A DNA stretch of 64,000 bases, taken from contig NZ_JABXYJ010000001.1 of NCBI RefSeq assembly GCF_013377855.1, positions 248,001 through 312,000 of the forward strand, in the 5' to 3' direction. Below, in pieces: positions 20,905-36,359 of the stretch. The notes beneath the pieces are model-generated. The model searched no databases and was not told the DNA's origin. It worked only from the letters and a program-made list of their open reading frames with translations. The translations under genes were made by a program, and so were the position numbers. Each line of letters starts with the position of its first letter. The stretch's first letter is position 1. Origin of the DNA: Cognatundibacterium oligocarboniphilum (GTDB taxonomy: Bacteria > Pseudomonadota > Gammaproteobacteria > Burkholderiales > Burkholderiaceae_D).

Positions 20905-22416
20905 TTAGTTAGAGCCAGTTGCAGCACCAACGTTGGATGTGTAACCGTTCACACCACCGATGTTAGTGATAACGCCTTGTGGGTTAACCAGCAGAGGCTG
21001 AACAGCCAGAGCATTGGTTGGACCATTTACCTGCAGGCTAGACCAGCCAGCTGGCAGACCCAGCTTAGTTGTCACGTCAGAAGTAGAAACGATAACAGAT
21101 GCATTAGGTTTCAGAGCTGGAGCAACAACTGCTGGTGTACCTTGAGCACCGGTATTCTGATCGTAAGCAACAGCAGAAATATCCGCTGCTACAATACCAG
21201 TGTTGATGATGCGCAGGTAAGTATTGTAGCCTGTGCCCAGAGCACCAGTTTGTGGTACGAAGCTAGGTACGAATACTTTAGAACCGTTAGAAGTCAGGTT
21301 GTATGCATTGCCACCGGAGGAAACGGATGCTACCGCACCAGCACCAGCTACGTTTGCAACAGTAGAAGCATTGCCAATTGTGTACTGAACTGGGAACTGG
21401 ATCTGTTTAGCACCTGCTGTTGTGTAGCACAGGTAAGCTGGAACAGCAGGAGTGCCACTCATAGCAGCGATATTGGCAACTGGGATTGTGCTGAATACGA
21501 CAGATTTCTTGTCAGTAGACACGGTTGTTGTCACGCCGGCGATTGCTGTCGCACATGCTGCATCGCTAGTCAGAGATGGCGTACCGGCAGAGAAATCACC
21601 AGCAGCAGACACAGTCACTGCACCAAAGTCAGCAACAGCAGGAGTACCGCCAGATGGTGTCTTCAGAGCGCCATTAACTGTCAGTGCAACGGAACCCAGG
21701 TTGATAATTGCTGTACCAGTTGTATTGGAAGTGGAAACGTTTTTGAACGTTGTCAGAGTACCGGTCGAAACGTCAACAACTTTTGTTTCTGCTGTAGCGA
21801 AAGCAGCAGAAGATGTCACTTTTTCAGACAGAGTAACAGCAGAGTTCAGGATAGTTGCAGATACAGGTGCCTCGATCCATGTGGAAACGCCAGCATAATC
21901 GCCAGGTGTCGATGTGTAACCGACAGCAGCAGTTACAGAACCGCCAGCAGCCAGTGCAACATTCAGGCCAGTCAGCGTAGTTGCCGGCGCAGCTGGAGCA
22001 GCTGGCTGGTTAATCGAAACTGTTGTACCAGCAGGCAGGCCAGATGATGGCGCAGTGACTGTGAAGTAGTAGCCTTTGCCGTCTGCATCAGCTGTCGCAG
22101 CACTAGCAATACTACCATTAGCATTAGTAGCAGAGTAGATGGTGCCATTACTGCTAGCAACAACGATGTTGGCAGCTGCAGGAACAGCAACCATCGTACC
22201 GGCGCTTGGGCGTACGTGGAATGTCACTGCAGTGTTCGATACCAGCAGAGAAGACGTTGCAAAAGTCAGGTTTGGCTGAGCAACAACTGCTGCAGCTGTA
22301 ACATATTCAGCAGCCAAAGTCGAACCGATGTTTACAGCCAGTGTACCGGCGTTTGCAGCCAGCGCTGACAAACCCAGCGTAGCAGCAACAGCAACACGCA
22401 TCATAGAATGTTTCAT
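20905..22416 (-). CDS. Exported Ala/Thr/Val-rich protein, candidate T2SS substrate / surface-layer protein
   Basis: I do not recognise a named family. From the ATG at 22416 (ribosome site AAGGAA) it has 503 residues with a clean Sec signal peptide, cleaved after ANA at residue 23. The mature chain is dominated by Ala, Thr, Ser, Val and Gly, with few charged residues, only two Trp and only two Cys (AACATA and YLCYT), which could form one disulfide. This composition is common for beta-rich S-layer proteins and adhesins. The last 110 residues (TYLRIINTG ... VAYDQNTGAQ ... LQVNGPTNALAVQPLL) look like a discrete beta-sandwich. Codons are strongly skewed to GCT/GCA/GTT/GGT/ACT, unlike the neighbours, as expected for a highly expressed gene. 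It lies directly downstream of gspD but has its own TTGACA promoter and strong terminator. Confidence 0.75.
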   Translation of the reverse strand: MKHSMMRVAVAATLGLSALAANAGTLAVNIGSTLAAEYVTAAAVVAQPNLTFATSSLLVSNTAVTFHVRPSAGTMVAVPAAANIVVASSNGTIYSATNANGSIASAATADADGKGYYFTVTAPSSGLPAGTTVSINQPAAPAAPATTLTGLNVALAAGGSVTAAVGYTSTPGDYAGVSTWIEAPVSATILNSAVTLSEKVTSSAAFATAETKVVDVSTGTLTTFKNVSTSNTTGTAIINLGSVALTVNGALKTPSGGTPAVADFGAVTVSAAGDFSAGTPSLTSDAACATAIAGVTTTVSTDKKSVVFSTIPVANIAAMSGTPAVPAYLCYTTAGAKQIQFPVQYTIGNASTVANVAGAGAVASVSSGGNAYNLTSNGSKVFVPSFVPQTGALGTGYNTYLRIINTGIVAADISAVAYDQNTGAQGTPAVVAPALKPNASVIVSTSDVTTKLGLPAGWSSLQVNGPTNALAVQPLLVNPQGVITNIGGVNGYTSNVGAATGSN

Positions 22417-22484
22417 ATTTTTATTTCCTTGTATACAAAAGTTAATTTGCAATTGCAATTGCGTCTTTCTTTAAAGACCGACGT

Positions 22485-22669: not shown

Positions 22670-25054
22670 TTATTTCACCCCTTTCTGTAAAGCGCGGATC
22701 TGCTCAATAATCTTTGAATCAGTCACAATATTCTCCGTTTTTTGTGCGGTTGCAGGCGTTTTTTCTGAAGTTACTTTTGTAGCAACATCAGATGCATTTT
22801 CCGATGCCTTTTCTTGCTGACCTGCCTCGTCAATAGCAGAAGAGTAATCCTTCTGCTTTTCACCGGCTTGTGTCTCTTTTTTGCTACTTTCCTTGCTGAC
22901 CGGTGTTTTTTTAGCTGGTAATACTAGCTGATTCACCGGAGCCGCCGCAGCCCAGCTGCCTAACTGATTCCGGAAAGCCTGGGTGATTGACTGAGCGGTC
23001 TGATCGTCATCCACTATATAAGGGGTGATCAGGACGATCAGCTCGGTCTTGTCATTGGTATCGGTCTGGGAGCGGAATAAGGAACCGAGGATGGGGATGT
23101 CTTTTGCCAGCGGCACGCCGGTGTTATTGCGCTGATTGTTGCCGGAAATCAACCCTGCCAGCATGACGGTGGCACCATCCTGAATCGAGAGCTTGGTTTC
23201 AATCTTGCGGTTGCTGAAAGTGGGGGAGCTGCTGACGCCGGTATCGGTCACGCCGGCAGAGCTGACCTCCTGCGAAACATCGACATCAATTCTGCCGCCG
23301 GCATGAATCACGGGCTTTACCTTCAGGATGATGCCGGTGTCCTTGTACTGGATGGTCTGGGTGACTCCGGCGACGCCCGGCGTAATCGATGCGGTGGTCT
23401 GCTGGCTGGTCAGGATCGGCACCTGTTGTCCGACGGAGATCGTGGCGCTTTCGCCATTGCGTGCCATGATGCGTGGGCTGGACAGGATCTGGGCGCGCTT
23501 GTTGCCAGCCAGCGCGTTGATGGCGGCCTTGATATTGCCATTGACGAGGCTGAAGGTCATACCGCCAGACTTCAGGCCGAGGTTGCCGAGCGTGCCGCCG
23601 ACGACGTTAGAAGTGGTGCTGCCATTGTTCAGCGCCCATTCGACGCCGAGGTTCATGCTGTCGGTCAGCGCGACTTCTGCGACCGTCATTTCGATCAGCG
23701 CCGAGCGCGCAGGTTTGTCGAGCTCGCGCAGCAATCCTATCCATTGCGAATACTGGTCTGCGGTACCCTGAATGATCAGGGTGTTGGTGGCCTTGTGCAC
23801 CACCACCCGGGCATTTTTTGCCGCACTCGCCGGCGTATTGCCAACGGTCGCCGTTGCGGGTGCGCCAGCGCCGATCAGGTCGCTGACGGTTTTGGCGAGG
23901 TCTTCGGCATCGAGATTCAGCACGGCGTAGGTGAAGTAGCCATTATTCCCCCGTGCCTTGGTCGGTTGGTCGAGGTCGTTCACCCATTCCGTCACGTGCT
24001 TCAGGATGGCGTCGTCTCCGGCAAAAACGATCAGGCTGTTATTGGCTGAAATCGGCAGCAACATGATCGGCATACTGGTCGCGCCCGGCCCCATGCCAAC
24101 CTGTGAGGTATAACCTTCGGCGGCAAGAATTTCGGTGAGTTTTTTCGCCAGATCGTCAACTGTCCAGTACACCGGATTAATGCGCTGGCTGGTGCGGCCG
24201 CGCATGGTCGGCTGATCCAGTATACGCACCACTTCCAGCGCCGCACGAACGTCTTCTGTTTCGCCAGAGATCATCAGGGCATTGTATTGCGCGCTTTCGG
24301 TCAGTTGCAGGCGGTTGGCAAACATCTGGGATAGCCACTGCCGCATTTCCACCGATCGCAAAGCATTCATTTCCACATACTGATAGATAGGGCGTAATGC
24401 GATCGGTACCTCGGGCAAGGCGCGACCACGACGGATTTCGGGTGAATAACCCAGCTGGGCATTGTCGGGCACGATGCGGTAAAAGCCGCCGACATCATTC
24501 ACTGTCACGCCATAGCTTTTCAGCAGCATCTGTGCTGCACGCAATACTTCGGAAGGCGTCTGCGGTCTGGAAGTGCGCAGGGTCACGAGGTCTTTGCGCT
24601 CCAGCACACGCGGATCAACGCTGAAATTGGCTTTCAGTACCACGCCGTACACGGTGTTAATAAATGCAGGCAGGGCGATCTGGTCAAACACCAGCGAAAT
24701 ATCGGCTTTTTCATTGGCGGGCAATTCCTGCGGCTTGCTGGCGCTGGCCGCGGCCGCGGCTGGCGGACGCGGCGTTTTTCTGACCGTCACGCGGGGTTCG
24801 TCGCTGGTTGCGGTCTCATTGGCGGCACTGCCGGTGCTACCTGCGGCAGCGTCATCGCTGGCGGTGGTCAGCTGCAGGGTGGTTGGCAAGGGGCCCGGTT
24901 TGTTCAGATTCAGCAACGGATCATATTGCGCGCAGCCGGACAGCAGCAAAGCGATCATCAGCGGCAACGTCTGCAGGGCAAAAGGTGGCTTGCGGGCATT
25001 CAGTGTGTGCATGGGAGAATGGATGTTTCCTGAGTTTTTTTGCATAGCATTCAT
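22670..25054 (-). CDS. gspD: Type II secretion outer-membrane secretin GspD
   Basis: A 794-residue secretin forming the outer-membrane gate. It has a lipoprotein-type signal (LLLSGC, about residue 41), then the N0 domain (ISLVFDQIALPAFINTVYGVVLKANFSVD, about 120-190) and repeated N1-N3 ring domains. The secretin core spans about 490-690, with VPILTSQQ, the TGIILKVKPVIHAGGRIDVDVSQEVSS block and GVPLAKDIPILGSLFRSQ. The last 100 residues are a Lys/Glu/Ala-rich tail of low complexity. A lipidated, N0-containing secretin could insert without a separate pilotin; none is seen nearby. It is the last T2SS gene in the operon. Confidence 0.93.
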   Translation of the reverse strand: MNAMQKNSGNIHSPMHTLNARKPPFALQTLPLMIALLLSGCAQYDPLLNLNKPGPLPTTLQLTTASDDAAAGSTGSAANETATSDEPRVTVRKTPRPPAAAAASASKPQELPANEKADISLVFDQIALPAFINTVYGVVLKANFSVDPRVLERKDLVTLRTSRPQTPSEVLRAAQMLLKSYGVTVNDVGGFYRIVPDNAQLGYSPEIRRGRALPEVPIALRPIYQYVEMNALRSVEMRQWLSQMFANRLQLTESAQYNALMISGETEDVRAALEVVRILDQPTMRGRTSQRINPVYWTVDDLAKKLTEILAAEGYTSQVGMGPGATSMPIMLLPISANNSLIVFAGDDAILKHVTEWVNDLDQPTKARGNNGYFTYAVLNLDAEDLAKTVSDLIGAGAPATATVGNTPASAAKNARVVVHKATNTLIIQGTADQYSQWIGLLRELDKPARSALIEMTVAEVALTDSMNLGVEWALNNGSTTSNVVGGTLGNLGLKSGGMTFSLVNGNIKAAINALAGNKRAQILSSPRIMARNGESATISVGQQVPILTSQQTTASITPGVAGVTQTIQYKDTGIILKVKPVIHAGGRIDVDVSQEVSSAGVTDTGVSSSPTFSNRKIETKLSIQDGATVMLAGLISGNNQRNNTGVPLAKDIPILGSLFRSQTDTNDKTELIVLITPYIVDDDQTAQSITQAFRNQLGSWAAAAPVNQLVLPAKKTPVSKESSKKETQAGEKQKDYSSAIDEAGQQEKASENASDVATKVTSEKTPATAQKTENIVTDSKIIEQIRALQKGVK

Positions 25055-25055
25055 A

Positions 25056-25508
25056 TTAGTTACGCCCGACTGCGAGCATGGCCTTTTTGCCGTTGACAGA
25101 AATAACGACCCAGTTTTGTTCTATCCGCATCACCGGAAAACCGCCGGGCAATTTATCGCCTGCGCTGAGTGTCTGCAAGTTGGCGGGATTATCTTTGAAA
25201 CTGATCACCAACTGATTGCTGCCGCCTGTCTTCACTACCGCCACGATACGCCAGTCCGGCGGCGTCAGCGGTTTATCTTCGGCCAGCCGGAGTTCAGCGG
25301 CTGGTTCCTTCCATAAGGTCCGGCTACTGAGCTGCTCCACTTTCATTTTGGGATCGGCCTTATAGACTGTCGGAATTTCCCATTGAGAAGCACCGCTGGG
25401 TGCGAGCTTTACGACGGGCAAAGGCGGCATGGCAATTGCCATGATGCCGATTCCGGATATTGCCAGCAGGCTGGTGACCATGGCGGTGAAACGAATCCGG
25501 AGCCACAT
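25056..25508 (-). CDS. GspC/PilP-like T2SS inner-membrane adaptor (HR domain)
   Basis: A 150-residue bitopic protein. It has one N-terminal membrane segment (about 8-28) and a periplasmic domain, with WRIVAVVKTGGSNQLVISF and LSAGDKLPGGFPVMRIEQNWVVISVNGKKAML at 84-147 forming a beta-rich HR-like fold. This fold links the inner-membrane platform to the secretin N0 domain. It is shorter than enteric GspC (no PDZ or coiled-coil part) and placed just before gspD, as for the XpsN/GspN position in xps-type systems, so either name could be used. Its start overlaps the gspM stop by one base. Confidence 0.75.
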   Translation of the reverse strand: MWLRIRFTAMVTSLLAISGIGIMAIAMPPLPVVKLAPSGASQWEIPTVYKADPKMKVEQLSSRTLWKEPAAELRLAEDKPLTPPDWRIVAVVKTGGSNQLVISFKDNPANLQTLSAGDKLPGGFPVMRIEQNWVVISVNGKKAMLAVGRN

Positions 25509-26191
25509 CAGGATTGTCCTTTCGCAGGTGATGCTTCATTGGCGCTATTTGTGGCGCTATTTGTGGCGCTGTCTGCGGCACCGGCTGCGCCCTGCCCGCC
25601 GGACTGCCCGGACAAACGGGTTAATGCTTTCAGATTCATTTCAGCCCGCCCTGTGGTGCCGACCCAGTTATAGGTCAGGCTGTCGACGACCATCGTTTGC
25701 TTGTTGGTGTCGATGATCTGCAACAGACTATACAACGTACGCGGCAATGCCTCGAAGCGCAGCTTGGCACGCATGACGCTGACGCCCGGGACCGTCGCAG
25801 CTTCGTCCTCTCTGGTCTTTGCACCGTCGTCTGCCAGTGCTTCGGACAGCGCGACGGTTGCATTGACGGCTTTTTCCTGCAACAGCAGATTTTGCAGGTA
25901 ATCGTTCCACTTGGACTGGATCAGACCGTGATTGCTGTCGGTCCAGTCTTTGGTACGCAATTCATCGAGCGCCTTACCAGCTTCCTTGCTGCGTACCAGC
26001 CATGATGTATCGGTTGCCTGCTGCCGTGCCTGCGCCAGCTGGACGCTGAGACGACGGTATTCTTTCTGTTTTTTGACGACCCGTTCCGATTGATCCAGGG
26101 TCAGGTAAGTGCCCAGCGTTGCCACAATCAATGCCAGGCCGATACGCAGCCGGATGTTGTTGCTGAGTTGTGCACGGAGACTGTCAGCCAT
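25508..26191 (-). CDS. gspM: GspM/PilO-like T2SS platform protein
   Basis: A 227-residue bitopic inner-membrane protein with one membrane segment (about 15-33, LRIGLALIVATLGTYLTL). A coiled-coil stretch (about 34-80) leads to a ferredoxin-like periplasmic domain (about 110-190, VMRAKLRFEALPRTLYSLLQIIDTN). It would pair with GspL in the assembly platform. The C-terminal 35 residues are Ala/Ser/Asn/Gly-rich and include a short tandem repeat (SATN). The name follows gene order and topology, since GspM sequences diverge greatly. Confidence 0.75.
   Translation of the reverse strand: MADSLRAQLSNNIRLRIGLALIVATLGTYLTLDQSERVVKKQKEYRRLSVQLAQARQQATDTSWLVRSKEAGKALDELRTKDWTDSNHGLIQSKWNDYLQNLLLQEKAVNATVALSEALADDGAKTREDEAATVPGVSVMRAKLRFEALPRTLYSLLQIIDTNKQTMVVDSLTYNWVGTTGRAEMNLKALTRLSGQSGGQGAAGAADSATNSATNSANEASPAKGQS
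25541..25576. repeat. Three tandem 12-bp units in the 3' end of gspM
   Basis: GGCGCTATTTGT occurs twice back to back (25541-25552, 25553-25564), followed by a diverged third copy (25565-25576). The frame is kept, encoding repeated SATN in the disordered tail. Slippage could change the copy number without a frameshift. Confidence 0.85.
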
Positions 26192-26192
26192 T

Positions 26193-27320
26193 TTATTCTT
26201 TTCCTCCTGCAGGATTGTCTGTCGTCATGCTCACGCCTTTGCGCGGCAGCACCGTCATGCGGAATGACAGCGCTTTGGTGTCGCGTGCCAACAGGTTCTG
26301 CACTTGTGCAAAATAACCGCTGGCGATGAGGTTTTTGGTAATGTCGGCGCGGGATGGCGTTTCCAGCCCACCGGCAATCACGATGCGGAGTTTATTTTCC
26401 TGAAATTCCCATTCGCGGATGGTGGAGTCAGACGGCAGGGCTTCTGCGACTGCGGTCATCAGGTCAAGCTGACCCGGATAAGGGTCGAGACGCTGGCGCG
26501 CCGCAATTTCATCCACAGCACGCAATGCGGTTTCTCTGGCCTGTACCAGATTGTTGGCCTGTCCGGTCAGCTGTGCCATGTCGGTGCGGATCTGATTCAG
26601 CCCACGGTTGAGTTGCTGCTCGCGCAGGCTGTACCAGCCATAAGGCAGCACCAGACACAAAAACAGCAGGGCATAAAACCACTGTTCCAGACGGTGGTGA
26701 GATTGCGACAATCCGGCGCTGGTGATGACGGGCAGCCACGGCTGGATGCGGATGGCGGGTTGCTGCGCTGTCGGTAATTGCGCTGAAACAGGAAGCGGGC
26801 TGCCGGCTTCACGGCAAAATCCGATGTAATCCTGCAGCTCCGGTGTTTGCGGCCACCAGCGGCTGCCGTGCAATTCGCCCTGTTTCCAGTATTGGGCTTC
26901 GACGCCATCCGGACAGGTGACCAGACGCATGCCATCGGTATGCGGCGCTTGCAGCACGGTCTCCGGAATTGCCTCGGCGTTTTGCCACGTTGCGGGCAAT
27001 TCGGCACGCCGCGCACTCAGCCAGGCGGCATCCCAGCACCAGACCAGCGCAGCATCAGATTCCAGCACAATCGCAAATTCCGGTTGTGCAAACGGTGACC
27101 ATTGCCGCAACTGCAATTGCAGCGCCTGCAGCCTGCGTTTGGCCGGAATATTTTTCAGGTCAAAGCGGGAAAAACGGCAAAATCCGCGGGCGATCACCAG
27201 TTGCGCTGGCAGCAGCGCGGTACCGGGCTTACTGAGAGGCGCCCTGGAGGATAAAAGGAGCCGTCGCGGCGCTGGCAGGCGTTGCCGTAAGGTCGAAAGG
27301 AATTGACGGAATGGCGTCAT
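26193..27320 (-). CDS. gspL: T2SS platform protein GspL
   Basis: A 375-residue protein with a cytosolic actin-like domain (about 1-215) that binds the GspE ATPase, one membrane segment (about 225-245, WFYALLFLCLVLPYGWYSL) and a periplasmic ferredoxin-like domain (about 290-370, MTAVAEALPSDSTIREWEF, RIVIAGGLETPSR). The only ATG overlaps gspK by 92 bases and lacks a clear ribosome site. A non-ATG start inside the overlap cannot be excluded, which would remove up to about 30 basic N-terminal residues. Confidence 0.85.
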   Translation of the reverse strand: MTPFRQFLSTLRQRLPAPRRLLLSSRAPLSKPGTALLPAQLVIARGFCRFSRFDLKNIPAKRRLQALQLQLRQWSPFAQPEFAIVLESDAALVWCWDAAWLSARRAELPATWQNAEAIPETVLQAPHTDGMRLVTCPDGVEAQYWKQGELHGSRWWPQTPELQDYIGFCREAGSPLPVSAQLPTAQQPAIRIQPWLPVITSAGLSQSHHRLEQWFYALLFLCLVLPYGWYSLREQQLNRGLNQIRTDMAQLTGQANNLVQARETALRAVDEIAARQRLDPYPGQLDLMTAVAEALPSDSTIREWEFQENKLRIVIAGGLETPSRADITKNLIASGYFAQVQNLLARDTKALSFRMTVLPRKGVSMTTDNPAGGKE

Positions 27321-28248
27321 TATTTTTTTGTATTATTCGTTGAGGAATACGGTAGTAGTAGTCGATACGCCAGGGTGCCTCGGGAGCGATCGGAGTAAGC
27401 GCCACATTATATCTGATAGATGTCTGCTGACTGTCTGCGCCCAGACTGACCCGGATCGTATCTGCCGGGAAGGCAATCACTTTAAAATACAGCTGTTGCA
27501 CGTCAATGCCAAGCAGATTTGCCAGTTGCCCTTCATTCAGAATCGGTTCGATATCCCGGTATTGCAAAATTCTGGGTACCGCTTCTGCGGTAATCCCCGG
27601 CAAAGTCATCAGAACCGCCGGTATGGCGGTATTCGGATTCACGGCTATGACTCTGGCAGTGGTCACCCAGTCGGTGATCGGTTCGCTGCCCGACCAGAGG
27701 CTGTCCTGCTCTTTCCAGCCATAAACCTGACGCAGCTGATCCGGCGTCACCAGCAATTGCCCGGTCGGGGCAGGCAGACCGTGAGTCTTGTAGTCCTCTT
27801 TCTGGACGCCATTCAGACGGTGCATATTCGGCGTCGGGTCCATGTAATCCATCAGGGTATCAAATAACCGGTCGTGCTCGGCTTCCGGCACTCCTTTACG
27901 GTTCAGCAGGACCCCCAGCGTATCCCGGCTGGCGCCATTGATGGCATACAAACCGCGAGTATCCTGAAACCGGGCAATGCAATCGCCCTCCATGCGGTAA
28001 GGCTGGTTATTGAGCTTGATATGCGTCGCCGGATCCCCCAGGCCATACATGCTGAATCCCTGGGTCGCCAGCAGGTAGGCGATTTCTGCCTTGCTGTCGC
28101 TGCAGGCAATCTGGGTCTGGATGTGGGCGTCGTATTGCTTGGCCAGTTCGATCGAGGCGGCAATCCGCTGGGCGAAATAGGTAGCGGCAATCGTAATGCC
28201 GGCCAGTATCCACAGCGTTGCCACCAGAATGAATCCGCGCGACTTCAC
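27229..28248 (-). CDS. gspK: T2SS minor pseudopilin GspK
   Basis: A 339-residue pseudopilin with a prepilin peptidase site after SRG and a following hydrophobic helix (FILVATLWILAGITIAATY). As in other GspK proteins, the Glu at position 5 of the mature chain is absent. The large globular part (about 60-290) forms the tip of the pseudopilus together with GspI and GspJ. Translation starts at GTG (28248), with GAGGTGATG upstream and a four-base GTGA overlap with gspJ. Confidence 0.9.
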   Translation of the reverse strand: MKSRGFILVATLWILAGITIAATYFAQRIAASIELAKQYDAHIQTQIACSDSKAEIAYLLATQGFSMYGLGDPATHIKLNNQPYRMEGDCIARFQDTRGLYAINGASRDTLGVLLNRKGVPEAEHDRLFDTLMDYMDPTPNMHRLNGVQKEDYKTHGLPAPTGQLLVTPDQLRQVYGWKEQDSLWSGSEPITDWVTTARVIAVNPNTAIPAVLMTLPGITAEAVPRILQYRDIEPILNEGQLANLLGIDVQQLYFKVIAFPADTIRVSLGADSQQTSIRYNVALTPIAPEAPWRIDYYYRIPQRIIQKNNDAIPSIPFDLTATPASAATAPFILQGASQ

Positions 28249-28865
28249 CGCATCACCTCGTTAAATTTTTTCCGGATATCCGGCAAGGGATTGACGGGTC
28301 CAGCCGGTTTGAACGCCAGCACCCACGGCTGACCATCACGCTCAGTCTCGATGCGGATGCTTTCCGGTATCTGGCGGCTGCGGTCAAATTCCGGCGGCCA
28401 GCTTTCATGCTCCTGCTGTTTGGTATCGAGATAGATAAACCGGCCGCGCCGTCCTTCCCAACTCAGCAAACGCAGGGGCTTATCCTGATACTGTGTATCG
28501 CTGTATTCCAGCACCATGCGTTTTTCAGCGACATCAAACCGCAGGCGCAATTGAAATGCGGTCGGTACGCCAAACTGGCCGGTAAAGACGGAGGTGCTGA
28601 TAGCGCTGATCTGCAATGGCCGACCTTTGAATTGCTGCTTGCCGTCTTCATCGTCCGGCTGCACGCCTTCCAGCAGCTGAGTCAGCCACGACTGCGCCAT
28701 CGCCTGATTGCTGTTGCGGTCGAGTTCGGTGCCGAAACGCTGGTGCAGGCTCATGGTGTGTTGCAATGCCTGCAGCAGGATCATGACGATCATACCGGAC
28801 ATGGCAATCACGACCAGCATTTCCAGAATTGTGAATCCGGCGGCGGGTTTATCAGAAGATGCCAT
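28245..28865 (-). CDS. gspJ: T2SS minor pseudopilin GspJ
   Basis: About 206 residues. The class III prepilin signature AAG-FTILEMLVV near residue 11 retains mature Glu5. A 20-residue hydrophobic helix is followed by a beta-rich domain (QLRLRFDVAEKRMVLEYSD, LLSWEGRRGRFIYLD). I use the ATG at 28865; a GTG three codons earlier is equally open. It overlaps gspI by 14 bases. Confidence 0.88.
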   Translation of the reverse strand: MASSDKPAAGFTILEMLVVIAMSGMIVMILLQALQHTMSLHQRFGTELDRNSNQAMAQSWLTQLLEGVQPDDEDGKQQFKGRPLQISAISTSVFTGQFGVPTAFQLRLRFDVAEKRMVLEYSDTQYQDKPLRLLSWEGRRGRFIYLDTKQQEHESWPPEFDRSRQIPESIRIETERDGQPWVLAFKPAGPVNPLPDIRKKFNEVMR

Positions 28866-29295
28866 TGAGCGCACGCACTTTCTTAAAACCTGCCAGTTTC
28901 AGATGCAGGGTGAACCAGGCCGGATCTTCCACCGTGCGCCCAGTCACATCCACCTCATACAAACCGACCTGATACAGGCCGATGCCGGACGGATAGGCAC
29001 GATTATCCGCCACCGGCCCGGACACTCTGGATTTCCACTCGATACGGTAAGCGCCGAATTCTGCCTTGCCGTCCGGATTTTGCATGGGATTGACCGCCTG
29101 CATATAGCTGACTACATTGGCGATCGCATCATTACGCGCATTGATGGTCTGCACTTTCCCCAGTGAAATGATGCTGGTGTTGATCCAGGCAAACAGGGTC
29201 ATGCCGATGGTGCCGATGAGCGCAAATGCAACGATCGCTTCGAGCAGGGTAAAGCCGCGCTGACGACGGCAGATATCCGGGTATTTATTGCGCAT
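28852..29295 (-). CDS. gspI: T2SS minor pseudopilin GspI
   Basis: About 147 residues, with a prepilin cleavage site in RQRG-FTLLEAIVAFALIG including Glu5, a hydrophobic helix and a small globular domain with the YRIEWKSRVS strand. It forms the pseudopilus tip with GspJ and GspK. ATG at 29295 (GTG at 29298 also open); the first bases overlap the gspH 3' end. Confidence 0.87.
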   Translation of the reverse strand: MRNKYPDICRRQRGFTLLEAIVAFALIGTIGMTLFAWINTSIISLGKVQTINARNDAIANVVSYMQAVNPMQNPDGKAEFGAYRIEWKSRVSGPVADNRAYPSGIGLYQVGLYEVDVTGRTVEDPAWFTLHLKLAGFKKVRALNGIF

Positions 29296-29716
29296 CACTG
29301 ACCCCGCATCGTGGCGCAGACAGACGTATCACTTCCGGCGGATGTTCAGGAATCCGGAGCTCCAGCACGCCGCCATCACAATAGCCATTAAACTGGTAAT
29401 GCAGCGGCACCGGTATGCGCACCGACCATCCCACAGGCAAATCGAGCGCAGGCTTGCCGTCTTTCAGCACATCGGCCAGATTATCCGTTTTCAGCACAGA
29501 ATCCTGTGCCAGCAGGTAATGGCGGTAACTGAGCGCATTAATCTGCGCCAGCACTCCGGACCGTTCGCTGCGATAGCGCACGCTGTCAATCAGCTTGCCC
29601 AGCGCCGGCATCGCCAGCGACCCCAACAGGCCTAACATCGCCAGGACAATCAATAACTCCAGCAAGGTGAAACCGTATTGCCCGGAATGCTTTTTTTTAT
29701 GGCTGCTTGTTGGCAT
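29285..29716 (-). CDS. gspH: T2SS minor pseudopilin GspH
   Basis: About 143 residues from the ATG at 29716, chosen because the short leader MPTSSHKKKHSGQYG precedes the prepilin motif G-FTLLELLIVLAMLG with Glu5. The frame remains open 62 codons upstream, but that part is antiparallel to no known domain and overlaps gspG. The globular part is small and beta-rich. It overlaps gspG by 20 bases. Confidence 0.85.
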   Translation of the reverse strand: MPTSSHKKKHSGQYGFTLLELLIVLAMLGLLGSLAMPALGKLIDSVRYRSERSGVLAQINALSYRHYLLAQDSVLKTDNLADVLKDGKPALDLPVGWSVRIPVPLHYQFNGYCDGGVLELRIPEHPPEVIRLSAPRCGVSDAQ

Positions 29717-30155
29717 GATCGCCAGCAGGAACGATACCGATGGCACCCTCGCCATTCTGATTACCGTCCGGGCCCAGTGAGTACAGGGCAAACGGCTTGC
29801 CTGCCGGTCCCGGCACGGCATACACGTAAGGCGCACCCCACGGATCGGTCGGCAGCTCCTCATCCAGATACGGGCCTTTCCATTTGTTTTTGATTTTTTC
29901 ATCGGCAGGCGGCGTATTCAGGATTGCCAGACCTTCTGACTGCGTGGGAAAACGGCCAATGTCGAGCCGCATGGTTTCGAGCGCACCCTTGAGCATCTTG
30001 ACCTGGGTTTGCGCAGTCTGGACTTTGGATGAGTCGAGCTTGCCAAACAGCTTGGGGCCGACCAGACTTGCCAGCAAGCCGATAATCACCAGCGTGACCA
30101 GCATTTCGATCAGCGTAAAGCCGGCCTGGCGGAGTAATTGACGTGTGTTTTTCAT
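29697..30155 (-). CDS. gspG: T2SS major pseudopilin GspG
   Basis: A 152-residue major subunit of the pseudopilus. It has prepilin motif QAG-FTLIEMLVTLVIIGLLASLV with Glu5, then the GspG core, including LKGALETMRLDIGRFPTQSEGL, WKGPYLDEELPTDPWGAPYVY and the C-terminal SLGPDGNQNGEG calcium-binding loop. Processing needs a GspO/PilD prepilin peptidase, which is not in this window. A GGAA ribosome site precedes the ATG. Confidence 0.96.
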   Translation of the reverse strand: MKNTRQLLRQAGFTLIEMLVTLVIIGLLASLVGPKLFGKLDSSKVQTAQTQVKMLKGALETMRLDIGRFPTQSEGLAILNTPPADEKIKNKWKGPYLDEELPTDPWGAPYVYAVPGPAGKPFALYSLGPDGNQNGEGAIGIVPAGDHANKQP

Positions 30156-30207: not shown

Positions 30208-31410
30208 CTAGACTGCGATATCGCTCAGGCTGGTGATCGCCATCATGATAGCAGCCATGATCAGACCGATGACGGAACCAATCAGCAAAATCGTGATGGG
30301 TTCGAGCATGATCAAAAATTTTTTCATCCTCTCCTGCCCGGCATTGGTATGCAGCACGGACAAGGTTTTCAGGGTAGTGGACAATTCGCCGGTGCGCTCC
30401 CCTACTCTGACCAGATTCAGGCCCATCGGGTTCAGTGTGCGGTGCACACCCAGCGACTCGGCCAGCGAAGTACCGCCTTTAAGATCGCGCACTGCCAGCG
30501 CCAGCTGCTGTTTCAACAGGCTGATCTGCACTCCCCCCTGCGCCAGTTCCATCGCCTTCACGATGGGCACGCGGTTTTCCAGCAGGGTGGACAACATGCC
30601 GGCCCAGCGGCCGATTTCCGTTTCGATCAGCCATGCGCCGATCAGGGGCATGTGCGCCAGCGCATCCCAGAATTTCTGCCTGACCTGAGGGCGAGAAAAT
30701 ATCCCTGCCAGGAAAAATACCGCCAATCCGGCTCCGACGCCCAGAATCAGCAAATGCTCTTTCACAAACATGCCGGTCTGCAGCACCCAGACGGAGATAT
30801 CGGGTAACTTGCCTTTGTTGTTTTTGAGCAGTCCGGCAAATTTGGGCACCACGACGATAAAAATCAGCAGAGTCGCGAGTACCCCGGAAACCGCCAGCAC
30901 CGCCGGATAGGTCAGCGCATTGCGCATATCCTGACGGACTTTCTCTTCATACTCCATCTGATTCGCCGCATGATGCAGGGAATGGGCGAGTTTGCCGGTC
31001 ATTTCACCAGCGGCAACCAGTTGCATCAGATAATCAGGAAAATCAATGCCGCAGGTTGCCAGGGCATCCGTGAGTTTGCCGCCGCCACGCAGAGTCTGGG
31101 CAATCTGTTGTGCAGCCTGGCCGACGGGCGTGGCGCCAGAGGCCTCGCTCATGGACTGGATGGCTTCCACCAACGATACTCCTGCTGCCAGCAAGGTTGC
31201 CAGTTCCCGCACCATCAGCATTTTGTCCTGCGCGCTGACGATCCGTCTGCTGGCCGGCTGACTGGCTGCCTGCAAGCTGATCGGACGCAGTGAGACAGGC
31301 GTCAGTCCCTGCTGCCGCAGCAGGCGTATGGCATCTGCCTCATTGCCCGCTTCGATCTGGCCTTTCACCATGCGCCCGTCTGCGGTGCTGGCTTCGTATT
31401 GATATGCCAT
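30208..31410 (-). CDS. gspF: T2SS inner-membrane platform protein GspF
   Basis: A 400-residue polytopic protein (about three membrane helices near 165-190, 218-240 and 370-395) with two repeated helical GspF domains (SLVEAIQSMSE, GGKLTDALA ... and the second copy with LGVHRTLNPMGLNLVRVGERTG). It forms the base beneath the pseudopilus with GspE/L/M. The start codon overlaps the gspE stop (TGATG). Confidence 0.95.
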   Translation of the reverse strand: MAYQYEASTADGRMVKGQIEAGNEADAIRLLRQQGLTPVSLRPISLQAASQPASRRIVSAQDKMLMVRELATLLAAGVSLVEAIQSMSEASGATPVGQAAQQIAQTLRGGGKLTDALATCGIDFPDYLMQLVAAGEMTGKLAHSLHHAANQMEYEEKVRQDMRNALTYPAVLAVSGVLATLLIFIVVVPKFAGLLKNNKGKLPDISVWVLQTGMFVKEHLLILGVGAGLAVFFLAGIFSRPQVRQKFWDALAHMPLIGAWLIETEIGRWAGMLSTLLENRVPIVKAMELAQGGVQISLLKQQLALAVRDLKGGTSLAESLGVHRTLNPMGLNLVRVGERTGELSTTLKTLSVLHTNAGQERMKKFLIMLEPITILLIGSVIGLIMAAIMMAITSLSDIAV

Positions 31411-33131
31411 CAGCCTGCCACCTGATTACTTAAACCGGTGACCCGCATGACTTCATCGATCGTTGTCATGCCATTTCTCGCCTTGATCAATCCGTCTTCC
31501 CGCAAATTGCGATAACCATCGCGCCTTGCCAGCTGATTCAACTCATGCGCGGGCATGCGTTGCACAATCGCCGCCTGCAATGCAGTTGTGACTTCAACAA
31601 ATTCATAAATACCGACCCGGCCACGATAGCCGGTCTGCTGGCATTGCGGGCAACCGGCAGCGTGATGCCATTGCGCCGGGGACGCCAGCAATGCCGGGAA
31701 ACGCTGCTGCAAATCCTGCATCTGGCTGCTGAATTCGGCCGGCGCCGACTGCAGCATTTCGTCTTCCGTGACTGGTCTGGCACAGTGCTGGCACAGGCGG
31801 CGCACCAGTCGCTGCGCCTGCACCGCACGCAGGGAGGAAGCCACCAGAAAAGGTTCCAGCCCCATGTCGATCAGACGGTTGAACGCGCCCAGCGCATCAT
31901 TGGTATGCAGGGTGGAAAACACCATGTGCCCGGTGAGCGCCGACTGCACCGCGATTTCTGCAGTTTCCAGGTCACGGATTTCACCGATCATGATGATATC
32001 GGGGTCATGCCGCAGGATCGCCCTGAGCGCACGGGCAAAGGTGTACTCGATTTCTGCGTGCGTCTGGATCTGGGTGATGCCGTCCATCTTGTATTCCACC
32101 GGATCTTCGACCGTGATGATTTTCTTTTCACGATCGTTCGCTTCGGCCAGCGCAGCATATAAGCTGGTGCTTTTTCCGGAACCGGTCGGCCCGGTCACCA
32201 GCACGATGCCGTGCGGCTCCTTGATCCATTGCCGGAATTTTTCCAGATGATCGGCTTCCATACCCAGTTTTTTGAGGCTGAAATCCTTGCGCTCCTTAGG
32301 TAGCAAACGCAACACGATTGATTCGCCATGCACACCAGGAATCACCGATACCCGGATGTCGATGTCGATGCCGCTGGCACGAATGCTGATGCGGCCATCC
32401 TGCGGCAGGCGACGTTCGGCAATATCCAGCCCCGAAATCAGCTTGATGCGCGACACCACGGCGTCGAAGCGGTCTCTGCCGAAACGCATCTTGGTGGTCA
32501 GGATGCCATCCACCCGGAAACGGATTTCAAACCCATGCTCTTCCGGTTCGATGTGAATATCCGATGCCCCCAGATCAATCGCCTGTGCCCAGGTGTTATT
32601 GACCAGCTCGATGACCGGCGCTTCTTCGGCCAGCTCGCGCAAATGCGCGACTTCATCGGAAAAGGCGCTGGCCAGATTATCGGCACGCAGCAGGTTGAAC
32701 ATCCGCTCCACGTCGCGGGAACGGATGAAATGCCATTGCAGCCGGTGCTGCGTAAAACTGCTGCTCAGGGTTTCATTCACAAAACTGTTGAGCGGATTGG
32801 CGGAAGCACATTCGATAGCACCTTCCGCCCCTTCCCAGATCACGACACCCTGCTCGGCCAGCCAGCCCGTGCTGATCCCGCCGAGCTGCGCAGCCTGCTC
32901 GATCACTGCCGCTGAAGTGGGCAGCAAAGCTTCATCCAGCACCGGTATTTCCAGCTGCCCGGCCAACACCGGCAGCAGATTGTCTTCGGAAATAGCACCG
33001 ATACGGATCAGTATCTGCCCCAGCCGCGCACCAAGCTGGGGTTGCAACTGCAGCGCCCGCTCTACGTCAACGCCGGAAACCAGTTGCTTCTGAATTAATA
33101 ACTCACCGATCGGTGTCAGATTCATGGACAT
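31410..33131 (-). CDS. gspE: T2SS assembly ATPase GspE
   Basis: A 573-residue cytosolic hexameric ATPase driving pseudopilus assembly. N-terminal N1E/MshEN-type region (about 1-160), then the ATPase core with Walker A GPTGSGKSTS, the Asp box (IITVEDPVEY), Walker B (DIIMIGEIRDLETAEIA) and the His box (TGHMVFSTLHTND). A zinc-binding tetracysteine element typical of GspE is present (CQHC ... CPQC). It follows the SoxZ-like gene by 8 bases in the same operon. Confidence 0.97.
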   Translation of the reverse strand: MSMNLTPIGELLIQKQLVSGVDVERALQLQPQLGARLGQILIRIGAISEDNLLPVLAGQLEIPVLDEALLPTSAAVIEQAAQLGGISTGWLAEQGVVIWEGAEGAIECASANPLNSFVNETLSSSFTQHRLQWHFIRSRDVERMFNLLRADNLASAFSDEVAHLRELAEEAPVIELVNNTWAQAIDLGASDIHIEPEEHGFEIRFRVDGILTTKMRFGRDRFDAVVSRIKLISGLDIAERRLPQDGRISIRASGIDIDIRVSVIPGVHGESIVLRLLPKERKDFSLKKLGMEADHLEKFRQWIKEPHGIVLVTGPTGSGKSTSLYAALAEANDREKKIITVEDPVEYKMDGITQIQTHAEIEYTFARALRAILRHDPDIIMIGEIRDLETAEIAVQSALTGHMVFSTLHTNDALGAFNRLIDMGLEPFLVASSLRAVQAQRLVRRLCQHCARPVTEDEMLQSAPAEFSSQMQDLQQRFPALLASPAQWHHAAGCPQCQQTGYRGRVGIYEFVEVTTALQAAIVQRMPAHELNQLARRDGYRNLREDGLIKARNGMTTIDEVMRVTGLSNQVAG

Positions 33132-33139
33132 GCGGTTCT

Positions 33140-33448
33140 CTATACGGTGACGCGGAAAGTTTCAACAGCGGTTTTGCCAAGATTATCCAGCCATTCTACT
33201 TTGACGATATCGTTTTTCAACAAATGCCTGGCACGGCACACCAGCTTGGGATGTGCCGCCATGGCCGGATTGAACTGTGCTGTCAGCAACACGCGGTCAT
33301 TGCTGGTAATGCTGAGTTCCTGAATGAAATTGCGGTAACTGACTTTACCGGATTTGGCCTGCAAGGCACTGTCATCGCGGAAGGGATTATCTATCAGCAA
33401 AGTCATTTCCACGAAATCATTCTGACGTTTGCATGTTAATGCGATCAT
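33140..33448 (-). CDS. SoxZ-like periplasmic protein at the head of the T2SS operon
   Basis: A 102-residue protein without its own signal peptide. It matches the SoxZ pattern along its length: NPFRDDSALQAKSGKVSYRNFIQELSI, then VLLTAQFNPAMAAHPKL, then KNDIVKVEWLDNLGKTAVETF; SoxZ has an Ig-like fold and dimerises with SoxY. In the thiosulfate-oxidising Sox system SoxZ lacks a signal and is carried out by SoxY through the Tat route, and the same could hold here, since the SoxY-like gene ends 2 bases before this start. No other sox gene is in the window. A sulfur-oxidation role is doubtful because the partner lacks its carrier cysteine. Confidence 0.75.
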   Translation of the reverse strand: MIALTCKRQNDFVEMTLLIDNPFRDDSALQAKSGKVSYRNFIQELSITSNDRVLLTAQFNPAMAAHPKLVCRARHLLKNDIVKVEWLDNLGKTAVETFRVTV

Positions 33449-33450
33449 AG

Positions 33451-33915
33451 TTATTCGGATAAAAGTTTGTTATCAAACGGAACCGCAATTTTGACTTCTT
33501 TTTGCGCCGTGTAAAGCTTGCCTCCAGCCCGCACGATCAGTTGCACCGTGGTCGTTCCTTTCAGGCGGATCTGCGTCTGAATCTCGGCTTCGGTACCGAC
33601 CGGTATGGTGAACTGCGCAATGGCCGGCGGCACCGCCGTTGCCGCCATCAGCAACATCATTTCTGTTCCAGGCAGCTCGCTGCGGATACGAACCGGAATC
33701 CGCTCCGGATCCAGGCTGACTTCCGGCATCTCAATCAGCAACCGGTTACTCGGCTCCGGCGCTTCTTTCTCGGTCAGGTTTCTGAGCGCTTCAGGCACGG
33801 TATTGGCTTCAAACAGCTTACGGCTCAAGGCCGCCAATACCGTCTGTGGCAACATGGCCGCCGCGATCATGGTCAGTCCGGACACCAGGGATAAGCGTCG
33901 CAACTTATTCAACAT
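33451..33915 (-). CDS. SoxY-like protein lacking the C-terminal carrier cysteine
   Basis: A 154-residue exported protein with a twin-arginine-like signal (KLRRLSLVSG, hydrophobic stretch, cleavage near residue 28-29). The mature part follows SoxY: RLLIEMPEVSLDPERIPVRI, a PPAIAQF segment, TQIRLKGTTTVQLIVRAGGKLYTAQKEVKIAV. In true SoxY the chain ends in GGCGG, whose Cys binds the sulfur intermediate; here the chain ends in PFDNKLLSE and has no cysteine in the mature protein. It can therefore have the fold and the SoxZ-type partner but not the carrier chemistry. It is the first gene of the T2SS operon, with a 373-base upstream region. Confidence 0.72.
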   Translation of the reverse strand: MLNKLRRLSLVSGLTMIAAAMLPQTVLAALSRKLFEANTVPEALRNLTEKEAPEPSNRLLIEMPEVSLDPERIPVRIRSELPGTEMMLLMAATAVPPAIAQFTIPVGTEAEIQTQIRLKGTTTVQLIVRAGGKLYTAQKEVKIAVPFDNKLLSE

Positions 33916-34288
33916 ACAAACCTGTCTTTCAATAAATATAATTTAAAACATTTCTGTGAGTCATCCGCCATCCGACCACAGGCAGGGACAAAACCCTGGT
34001 AGTCGCGCCGGGTTATTTGGGCGCAGGTGACCGTTTTCTGTTGAGCTGGCGAAATATCGGGATTTTACCTGTTATTGAGCTGGCAATAAGGGAAAATCCC
34101 AGAAATCATCTTGATGAGTTTTGATCACGTTTTGTGTAAATTCCTGCATTTATGCAACAATTTGTTTTACTGGTCAATCGCACAGCCCTATATAGTAGAA
34201 TGCGGGCTGCGATTATAAAATCAAATAATTATCGCTGCTCCGATCAATTACTTCTCTACAACAAGCCTCGTGCCCCCCTGCCCCAGCA
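33916..34288. promoter_or_regulatory. Divergent control region of the T2SS operon and the polysaccharide cluster, with a long hairpin
   Basis: This 373-base gap separates the T2SS/Sox-like operon from wzm and carries no gene. At 34059-34100 an interrupted inverted repeat pairs GGGATTTT with AAAATCCC and, inside, TTATTG with CAATAA around the loop AGCTGG. TTGAGCTGGC is also repeated directly at 34041-34050 and 34075-34084. Downstream, 34190-34260 is AT-rich with TATATAGTAGAAT, a possible -10 for wzm, but no good -35 is evident. No U-run follows the hairpin, so an operator or leader structure is more likely than a terminator. Confidence 0.5.
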
Positions 34289-35131
34289 ATGCGTATATTT
34301 AAATCTCTCCTGTGCTTTTTGCGGGCGCCATGGGTCAGTTTGTGGATCAACCGGGAATTGCTGTATCAGCTTTGCAAACGCGATATCAGTGCCAAATATA
34401 AGGCCTCAGCACTGGGCCTGGCCTGGTCTGTGCTGCTGCCACTGACCATGCTGGCAATTTACGCTTTCGTTTTTGGCGAAATATTCAAATCACGCTGGGG
34501 CAATGCACCGCCGCCACAGACCTGGTCGGAAAGACTGAGTTTTGCCCTGATTCTGTATGCCGGTCTGATGACGTTTAACTGGTTTGCAGAATGTCTTTCC
34601 AAAGCACCGGTCACGATTCTGCAACATGTGAATTTCGTCAAGCGCGTGATTTTCCCCCTGGATATTCTCCCGGTCATTCCGGTCGTCATCGGTGGATTTC
34701 ATTTCCTCATCAGCGGTCTGGTGCTGGCGGGCTTCACTTTGGCGTCGCCCGTAGCCGTTACATGGCACTGGCTGCTGACTCCGTTATTACTGCTGCCGTT
34801 TGTTTTTTGCCTCACAGGCATGAGCTGGCTGCTCAGCGCGATTGGCGTGTATTTCCGCGATATGGAGCAGATGATGCCGGCACTGACCAGTGCGCTGATG
34901 TTCCTGAGTCCGGTGTTTTATTCAGTACAGGTGCTACCGGAATTTATCCGTCCCTGGCTGATGGCTAATCCAATGACGCTGATGATTGAAACTTTGCGCG
35001 ATCTGCTGTTCTGGCAGCAGCTACCTGCATTCACCGTGCTTCTCGCACTGTATGGCTTTGCACTGCTGCTGTTTTATCTGGGTTATTCGTGCTTCACCGT
35101 CTTGCGCCGGGGGTTCAGTGATGTCCTCTGA
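34289..35131 (+). CDS. wzm: Polysaccharide ABC transporter permease (Wzm-like)
   Basis: A 280-residue inner-membrane permease of the ABC-2 O-antigen/teichoic-acid export type with six predicted helices. It starts with an amphipathic stretch ending in RDISAKYKASALGLAWSVLLPL, the interface sequence typical of Wzm/RfbD/KpsM proteins. FRDMEQMMPALTSALMFLSPVFYS is the matching second conserved block. It exports lipid-linked polysaccharide across the inner membrane. No clear ribosome site; its end overlaps wzt by 11 bases. Confidence 0.9.
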   Translation: MRIFKSLLCFLRAPWVSLWINRELLYQLCKRDISAKYKASALGLAWSVLLPLTMLAIYAFVFGEIFKSRWGNAPPPQTWSERLSFALILYAGLMTFNWFAECLSKAPVTILQHVNFVKRVIFPLDILPVIPVVIGGFHFLISGLVLAGFTLASPVAVTWHWLLTPLLLLPFVFCLTGMSWLLSAIGVYFRDMEQMMPALTSALMFLSPVFYSVQVLPEFIRPWLMANPMTLMIETLRDLLFWQQLPAFTVLLALYGFALLLFYLGYSCFTVLRRGFSDVL

Positions 35132-36359
35132 TGTCATGATTTCCGCTCAAGGTATTGGCAAGGCCTATGCCTTGAACGCCAGCCCCTTGCGTCAGATGCT
35201 GGCGCAATTCCGGCCAGCCCGGAGAACAGATGATTTCTGGGCGCTCAGGCCATTAGACCTGACCGTGCGGCGGGGTGAAGTGATCGGCGTGATCGGGCAG
35301 AATGGTTCGGGAAAATCAACTTTGTTGCAGCTTTTATGCAATACGCTGAACCCCAGTTGCGGTAAGGTACAGGTCAATGGCCGGCTGGCGGCATTGCTCG
35401 AACTTGGGGCCGGATTCAACCTGGATTTTACCGGCTGGGAAAATATCCGTTTAAGTGCCGCCCTGTATGGCCTGAGTCACGCAGAAACCGAACAAAAAAT
35501 CGGGGCGATCGCGGCTTTTGCGGATATCGGGGATTTTATAGACAAACCAGTCAAGACTTATTCCAGCGGCATGTTTGTACGGCTGGCGTTTGCCGTGATT
35601 GCCAATATTGATGCGGATATTCTGGTGATTGACGAAGCACTGGCTGTCGGTGATGTCTTTTTTACCCAGAAATGCATGCGTTTTCTGCAGTCTTTTGCGG
35701 AAAAAGGCACCATCCTGTTTGTCAGCCATGACAGCGCCAGCGTCGTCAGCCTGTGCAACCGCGCGATTTTGCTGGAGCACGGAATGCTGCTGGCCGATGG
35801 CGACCCAAAAACCATCACCGAATATTACTTGCAAAAACAATATTTCCATCAGCAACCGCAAACGGAGCAGGCACCGGTAAAAACTGGCGATTCTGCGGTA
35901 AATCAGGGAGAATTCGGGCTGAAGGGATTATCCGTGCAGACAGTCAGCGTTCTGGACAGCGCAGGGGAACCGGTATTTCAGCTGCACGGCGCGACGTCTT
36001 TATGCCTGAACATACAGATTATGGCGCATCAGGACACAGCACATCCGCTGGTCGGTTTCTCTCTGAAAGACAGACTGGGGCAGGTCATGTTTGGCGGCAA
36101 CTCCGCCGATGCACAAGGCCATTTACCTGCCCTCCAGGCAGGGCAATCATTGCAGGTGGAATTTGATCTCACCGTCCCCGGTCTGACGCTCGGCGATTAC
36201 ATGATCAGCGTTGCAGTCGGGGAAGGGAATGCCAGAAATCATCTGATGCATCACTGGATCCATGATGCCTACGCCCTGCATTCAACGCTGACAGTTCAGA
36301 GTGGCATGCTGGAAATTCCTGTCGACAGAATGCGTCATCATTTGTTGTCCACATTATGA
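35121..36359 (+). CDS. wzt: Polysaccharide ABC transporter ATPase with C-terminal substrate-recognition domain (Wzt-like)
   Basis: 412 residues from the ATG at 35121; the open frame begins 45 codons earlier inside wzm but those codons are not needed. The nucleotide-binding domain (about 1-245) has Walker A GQNGSGKST, signature YSSGMFVRLAFA, Walker B ILVIDEALAVGD and the switch His in FVSHDSASV. After a linker, about residues 270-405 form a beta-rich Wzt_C-type domain (LCLNIQIMAHQD, VGFSLKDRLGQVMFGGN, LTLGDYMISVAVGEG). In E. coli O8/O9a and others this domain reads the modified non-reducing end of the polymer before export. The next gene begins with a methyltransferase domain, fitting that scheme. 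Confidence 0.92.
   Translation: MSSDVMISAQGIGKAYALNASPLRQMLAQFRPARRTDDFWALRPLDLTVRRGEVIGVIGQNGSGKSTLLQLLCNTLNPSCGKVQVNGRLAALLELGAGFNLDFTGWENIRLSAALYGLSHAETEQKIGAIAAFADIGDFIDKPVKTYSSGMFVRLAFAVIANIDADILVIDEALAVGDVFFTQKCMRFLQSFAEKGTILFVSHDSASVVSLCNRAILLEHGMLLADGDPKTITEYYLQKQYFHQQPQTEQAPVKTGDSAVNQGEFGLKGLSVQTVSVLDSAGEPVFQLHGATSLCLNIQIMAHQDTAHPLVGFSLKDRLGQVMFGGNSADAQGHLPALQAGQSLQVEFDLTVPGLTLGDYMISVAVGEGNARNHLMHHWIHDAYALHSTLTVQSGMLEIPVDRMRHHLLSTL

Follow-up and report, generated by a model that had tools for sequence, protein, structure and literature searches.

The S-layer type II secretion system (T2SS) of Aeromonas salmonicida (spsE to L) is described, in the available part of the report, as ending in vapA, between Wzm and Wzt (PMC4483657). 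According to the accessible passages on NpdA, its S-layer genes adjoin a gsp cluster of 12 genes in many Beta- and Gammaproteobacteria (PMC10765051), and the Slr4 S-layer gene likewise adjoins a T2SS cluster in the excerpted report on that protein (PMC7821379). The term 'sox' is absent from these extracts on NpdA (PMC10765051) and Slr4 (PMC7821379), from the extract of the AnnoView text on the Slr4 neighbourhood (PMC11094555) and from extracts of two Delftia texts (PMC3110197, PMC4572682). Undibacterium is not named for NpdA in the extract concerned (PMC10765051), and the A. salmonicida extract mentions some hypothetical proteins and does not name SoxY or SoxZ (PMC4483657). The locus analyzed here resembles sps-vapA, by layout and not by sequence, in having a presumed surface protein gene at the end and Wzm/Wzt genes nearby (PMC4483657). 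It resembles the NpdA and Slr4 systems in having a presumed S-layer gene, slp, beside a T2SS cluster, the likeness of slp being one of gene layout alone (PMC10765051, PMC7821379).

The locus also harbours a gene pair related to the SoxYZ thiosulfate carrier (TIGR04488/TIGR04490; Paracoccus 2OXG). The pair shares with this carrier the Pfam subunits, the SoxY fold, the gene order soxY-soxZ, the RR ahead of the SoxY hydrophobic stretch and a SoxZ without signal. Unlike the carrier it lacks the GGCGG arm, scores under the equivalog cut-offs and is linked to a T2SS, in a genome without a SoxA match or a SoxB over cut-off. Other SoxY paralogs have a changed arm or changed partners, e.g. the AACIE-arm type (TIGR04487) and the quinoprotein-dehydrogenase-associated SoxYZ-like carrier (TIGR04557); the T2SS-linked SoxY group differs from the former in that both AACIE rows of our tree fall outside it. 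Divergent SoxY-S groups were found to adjoin dehydrogenases, otr and dms, in a text whose available part contains no word beginning with 'secretion' (PMC11237559). No description of a pairing of SoxY(Z) with a T2SS or an S-layer was found among the titles and abstract openings listed from the open-licence literature.

The window, i.e. the whole stretch of DNA that was analyzed, comprises 64,000 nucleotides of Cognatundibacterium oligocarboniphilum (contig NZ_JABXYJ010000001.1, positions 248,001 to 312,000). On its (-) strand the genes follow each other in the order soxY, soxZ, gspE, gspF, gspG, gspH, gspI, gspJ, gspK, gspL, gspM, gspC-like and gspD, then slp (Table 1). The gaps of 2 bases between soxY and soxZ and of 8 bases between soxZ and gspE, with the pair directly before gspE, agree with the original prediction. 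The cluster encodes the ATPase, inner membrane protein, pseudopilins and secretin of a T2SS, with L, M and C recognised by position or weak match; for the gspL-position protein neither Pfam nor NCBIfam gave a match at E 1. The slp frame begins 211 bases past the gspD frame. On the other side the Wzm-like gene starts 373 bases from soxY and is followed by Wzt-like and glycosyltransferase genes. The intergenic region contains one weak promoter consensus site (33964-33935, (-)), which is not evidence of function, and a promoter/terminator scan gives no conclusion (4 promoter-like sites versus 2.0 in shuffles). The segment 34289-40788, divergent from the operon, codes for a Wzm/Wzt-like exporter, a 1074-aa multidomain methyltransferase/glycosyltransferase and a UDP-GlcNAc 2-epimerase, and is likely an O-antigen cluster. 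In all five Undibacterium genomes that carry SoxYZ, and at five other loci, a wzm-like gene is located near the cluster. This cargo side of the locus, i.e. the linked slp gene and the adjoining O-antigen export genes, had been missed by the original prediction.

Table 1 Features of the secretion locus and adjoining genes (positions in the window)
Feature	Position	Strand	Basis and remarks
slp, large secreted protein, presumed S-layer-like cargo	20905..22458	(-)	likely start 22416; relatives adjoin same T2SS
gspD secretin	22670..25054	(-)	PF00263 8.7e-47; lipobox-like signal by inspection
gspC/N-like protein	25056..25508	(-)	PF11356 0.0018, under cut-off
gspM-position protein	25508..26191	(-)	position and orthologs
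gspL-position protein	26193..27320	(-)	position and orthologs
gspK-like	27229..28248	(-)	PF21687 2.3e-7
gspJ-like prepilin	28245..28874	(-)	PF07963 1.2e-4
gspI-like prepilin	28852..29298	(-)	PF07963 6.1e-7
gspH-like prepilin	29285..29902	(-)	GFTLLELL prepilin motif, orthologs elsewhere; true start probably further inside listed ORF
gspG major pseudopilin	29697..30155	(-)	TIGR01710 158.5 bits, cut-off 88.85
gspF-like	30208..31410	(-)	PF00482 2.1e-45
gspE-like ATPase, weak MshEN-type N-domain	31410..33131	(-)	PF00437 3e-134; TIGR02533 569/630 bits, under cut-off
SoxZ-like protein	33140..33448	(-)	102 aa; signal peptide absent by inspection; PF08770 6e-14
SoxY-like protein	33451..33915	(-)	154 aa, no Cys, presumed exported; PF13501 5e-15; model matches SoxY
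divergent intergenic region, 373 bases	33916..34288		presumed promoter region of soxY-gsp operon and wzm-like gene; gene coordinates
Wzm-like ABC-2 permease (O-antigen export)	34289..35131	(+)	PF01061 1.4e-22
Wzt-like ATPase with Wzt_C domain	34986..36359	(+)	PF14524 3e-24, PF00005 1.3e-18

Profile HMM searches bear out the reading of the first two genes as a SoxY-like and SoxZ-like pair. The SoxY-like protein scores 56.1 bits with PF13501 (Pfam cut-off 28.4) and the SoxZ-like protein 52 bits with PF08770 (Pfam cut-off 25), while their scores with the NCBIfam equivalogs stay under the cut-offs (87.2 versus 125 bits for TIGR04488, SoxY_true_GGCGG; 50.1 versus 76 bits for TIGR04490, SoxZ_true). 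The AlphaFold model of the SoxY-like protein (mean pLDDT 83.3) has as its 15 best PDB matches chains from SoxY or SoxYZ entries, with 2oxg_Y on top (E 2.6e-8, TM 0.87 on target). Searching the PDB by sequence with the SoxZ-like protein gave nothing at E 1. The SoxY-like chain ends in AVPFDNKLLSE and, as had been noted for its PFDNKLLSE tail, lacks the GGCGG arm; the whole chain contains no Cys. Its N-terminus is Tat-like, with RR ahead of a hydrophobic stretch, and the motif RLSLVSG is what we take to be an incomplete Tat consensus. PF13501 and PF08770 each have a single match in the 3.67 Mb genome, namely the pair in the window. The genome belongs with Undibacterium (Burkholderiales; Oxalobacteraceae in the NCBI taxonomy). 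The same stretch is present in U. griseum FT31W, where soxY shows 97% identity, and the locus also occurs in U. terreum; both are environmental strains. These sole matches, together with recurrence in other species, confirmed that the pair beside gspE is real and above chance.

Relatives of gspE were collected with E limits between 1e-110 and 1e-150 (in the genus 0.001) from evenly drawn groups, comprising 294 genomes from the family, 399 from the order, 274 from the class and 399 from family f49. A SoxY-like gene was found at most about 1.5 kb from gspE in 23 of the 38 related loci, a count of loci examined in which six of the positives come from a search whose query, the gspE of a SoxY-bearing relative, favours positives. 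SoxZ accompanies SoxY in nine of the 23, the other 14 have SoxY only, and the remaining 15 of the 38 loci have neither. Copies of G009, G022 and G041 (L017-L019) were counted once, and G030 (L057), whose gspE is cut by a contig end, was excluded from tree and counts. The neighbourhood is not unique to one strain; recurrence in other species ruled out this explanation.

Within the genus, where the genome-wide PF13501 search was carried out, 17 of the 43 genomes searched have a SoxY match. Five genomes carry SoxY and SoxZ before gspE (G000, G009, G022, G041 and G036; gspE 84-100% identical) and four carry SoxY alone (G032, G002, G016 and G034; gspE 47-49%); in one, G030, a contig end cuts the locus, and the other 33 gave no gspE match better than 1.5e-114. 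Beyond the genus, SoxY-bearing loci were found in G078, G116 and G103 (294 family genomes searched) and in G637, G493, G457, G609 and G676 (399 genomes of the order searched). At the new gspE matches from the 274 class genomes no SoxY was seen by tblastn and ORF view. With the gspE of G676 as query, seven of the 399 genomes of family f49 matched at 1e-150, and SoxY is present in every one of them, including G676. The six later loci (L161-L166) are in neither tree. Four of the six later SoxY proteins have no Pfam SoxY match and two a weak one (0.014 and 0.0036); an HMM from the other SoxY rows recognised all six at E 3e-17 to 3e-28 (small ORF set).

In the gspE tree the relevant clade (32 rows, support 100/99) contains nine loci with SoxYZ, eight with SoxY only and 15 with neither. 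An HMM re-check of 989 ORFs revealed no SoxY at these 15 loci; L126-L129 and the PilB-like rows fall outside the clade, and the SoxY check there was by tblastn/ORF view at most. The head position of the pair, which the original prediction had described, applies to the window and is not general, as the pair is divergent from gspE in three of the nine SoxYZ loci (G637, G493 and G457). Of the eight SoxY-only genomes in the gspE tree, seven gave no SoxZ in a genome-wide search (36 genomes, excluding G1019, G1072, G1107, G994, G1018 and G1055); the other one, G034, has a SoxZ beside its canonical SoxY. SoxY is the conserved element, and part of the family does without SoxZ, which corrects the original prediction of a recruited pair.

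Phylogenetic analysis of SoxY, in trees with long branches, few columns and a bootstrap that is not fully settled, split 17 T2SS-linked proteins from 35 canonical and two AACIE rows (96/83, 169 columns). The same split was obtained without the tail (98/96, 100 columns), where the canonical sample, which is narrow (Undibacterium relatives and mostly Rhodocyclales), is not one group. In the tail-cut tree the two members with a tail Cys (G116 and G078) branch first and the other 15 cluster together (98/93). This order fits a stepwise loss of the Cys.

Neither Pfam nor NCBIfam has a match for the slp protein. Its model is beta-rich and of low confidence (mean pLDDT 58), with weak PDB matches, and was too poor for a fold assignment, which was dropped; a Pfam Slr4 match of one of eight slp proteins (E 0.5) was not used. 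A linked slp occurs in each of the 11 SoxY-bearing clusters that share the window's type. In nine it is clear, with relatives after gspD in G009, G022, G041, G036, G637, G609, G078 and G116, and in G493 and G457 it is weak. A strict profile built from three close relatives scored 716 bits in G009, 599 in G022, 173 in G116 and 131 in G637, down to 48 in G078, 31 in G609 and 18 in G457; G493 is not listed, and this profile did not reach it or the second slp group. That group belongs to a second cluster type, in which a slp-type gene, recognised by motif, stands before soxY in ten of 12 clusters (G032, G002, G016, G034, G103, G1072, G1107, G994, G1018 and G1055); the soxY of three of these ten was recognised by the HMM from other SoxY rows. 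In G1019 no slp-type gene was seen directly upstream of soxY, and in G676 a slp relative lies about 3.4 kb past gspD on the opposite strand. The two slp groups align profile to profile over 454 columns (hhalign 99.2%, E 1.1e-19). G116 has, near its 507-aa slp-type protein and on the opposite strand, a second one of 900 aa (L152:5582-8284), which outscores the former on the strict profile (173 versus 43 bits).

A T2SS cluster linked to the gene of a large secreted protein is the layout of the known S-layer systems, and this type of T2SS probably exports an S-layer protein. Recruitment of the pair to the T2SS, as originally proposed, is supported by recurrent linkage, by the single SoxY group, by purifying selection and by the absence of SoxA and SoxB over cut-off. 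The proposal can be narrowed to one particular T2SS type, probably that for the S-layer; the genome's other gspE-like gene (a 477-aa frame) lies on contig 30, a contig other than that of its sole SoxY. We somewhat favour the view that a sulfur-less SoxY(Z) has taken up a dedicated role as periplasmic accessory to a T2SS that exports one self-assembling surface-layer protein. Gene linkage, one SoxY group, Cys loss in most members, SoxA/SoxB absence over cut-off, purifying selection and the linked slp support this view. A SoxY(Z) sulfur carrier would have lost its sulfur-binding arm, and its SoxY would be exported via the Tat-like signal, with the signal-less SoxZ, where present, carried along. 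In the periplasm the Ig-like complex, or SoxY alone, would dock at the T2SS. There it may act as an adaptor that holds or presents the incoming S-layer subunit, which we infer to be slp, until it enters the secretin, its presumed export route. The holding might occur through the better conserved N-terminal part of this subunit. Against the accessory reading count the absence of SoxY at 15 of 38 loci and of SoxZ at 14 of 23 and the divergent pair at three loci.

The original prediction had left the role of the accessory open between scaffold, substrate chaperone and cargo adaptor. The recruitment idea is largely borne out; these roles cannot be separated on sequence, and the adaptor and scaffold readings both stand. 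At least five of the 15 SoxY-negative loci have the same kind of secreted protein (G050, G342, G376, G552 and G446), and SoxY is therefore not essential to a T2SS of this kind. SoxY(Z) could instead be a structural part of the T2SS that assembles or stabilises the secretin or the short GspC-like protein, like the pilotins and scaffolds of other T2SS. Such a part is conceivable, if rather unlikely. Consistent with it, the GspC-like protein is short and weakly matched, and the pair evolves with the machine and not with slp. The T2SS proteins of G000 and G009 are 88-99% identical to each other (GspC-like 93, GspM-like 88) and their SoxY and SoxZ 97-98%, versus 55% (265/480) for slp, of which the first 50 columns, signal included, match at 39. 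However, 15 of the 38 related T2SS manage without SoxY, and in ten of the 12 second-type clusters soxY lies between the slp-type gene and gspE, which indicates a tie to the cargo as well. SoxYZ has not kept pace with the variable part of slp, and contact with the machine or with the N-terminus of slp is the likelier option, as we infer from these alignments. The slp of the window (20905-22458) has diverged from that of the close relative G009 as if under diversifying pressure; fast change is as expected for an exposed surface layer.

A second alternative is that the pair is still a carrier of sulfur or of another covalent group by another residue, e.g. for placing a small group onto slp or for redox repair. 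Fold and family are indeed those of SoxY and SoxZ, and two members, G116 and G078, retain a tail Cys (GPCKK and GPCE). However, a post-signal Cys is missing in 20 of the 23 T2SS-linked SoxY proteins (that of G994 has one Cys near the N-terminus, in a reading that is possibly over-long), and the tails of the 17 linked SoxY in the tree differ widely in length and sequence. The own genome has one SoxY, one SoxZ and no SoxA match, and its best SoxB match reaches 40.7 bits versus a cut-off of 550, in a search where ten of 14 control genomes likewise give matches under cut-off. SoxA and SoxB are both missing over cut-offs in seven of the nine genomes with T2SS-linked SoxYZ; both occur in G041, and of the two SoxA alone in G022 (56% complete). 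A covalent carrier of this kind is thus judged highly improbable. Thiosulfate carriage in particular was rejected as a role on the grounds of the Cys loss and of the state of SoxA and SoxB in the genome, which make it very unlikely for the window pair. An annotation that goes by the SoxY or SoxZ domain and nothing else would credit these genomes with thiosulfate oxidation in error. An RR signal is present in nine of nine linked SoxY with SoxZ and in eight of 14 without, and is not specific; the idea, suggested by the first loci, that the Tat signal is retained solely where SoxZ rides along was dropped on these counts over all 23.

That soxY and soxZ are passenger genes, decaying beside the operon by chance, would agree with their patchy presence and with the failure to find SoxZ next to gspE at 14 of 23 loci, but is already largely refuted and hardly credible given a linkage retained across several genera and gene orders and dN/dS values of 0.035-0.130 for the computable pairs (several with dS near saturation), soxZ of the near-identical pair G493-G457 (0.218) being the exception. 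For G000-G009 the values are 0.042 (soxY), 0.035 (soxZ) and 0.049 (gspE), and for G022-G041 0.095, 0.072 and 0.028; many pairs have dS at or near saturation, and several saturated ones yield no ratio. These ratios indicate purifying selection on soxY and soxZ.

How a T2SS chooses its cargo and holds it in the periplasm is a long-standing open question. A system that has one likely cargo, and in which the accessory is small, separable and conserved, would offer a handle on it. The dedicated accessory, if true, would be a clear case of a carrier from energy metabolism re-used for protein export. The wider claim, that these proteins form a new, sulfur-less SoxY(Z) family whose specific role is that of a periplasmic adaptor for the S-layer-secreting T2SS of Burkholderiales, and that its stepwise history is still visible, is evenly balanced in our judgement. 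The stages that would be visible are SoxY with a tail Cys, Cys-less SoxYZ and SoxY alone, the latter in some genomes diverged below Pfam detection. In two Undibacterium genomes, SoxY-related proteins with an AACIE arm (L047:6425-7006 and L016:1483-2010) adjoin SoxZ as well as a SoxA match and belong to a separate system.
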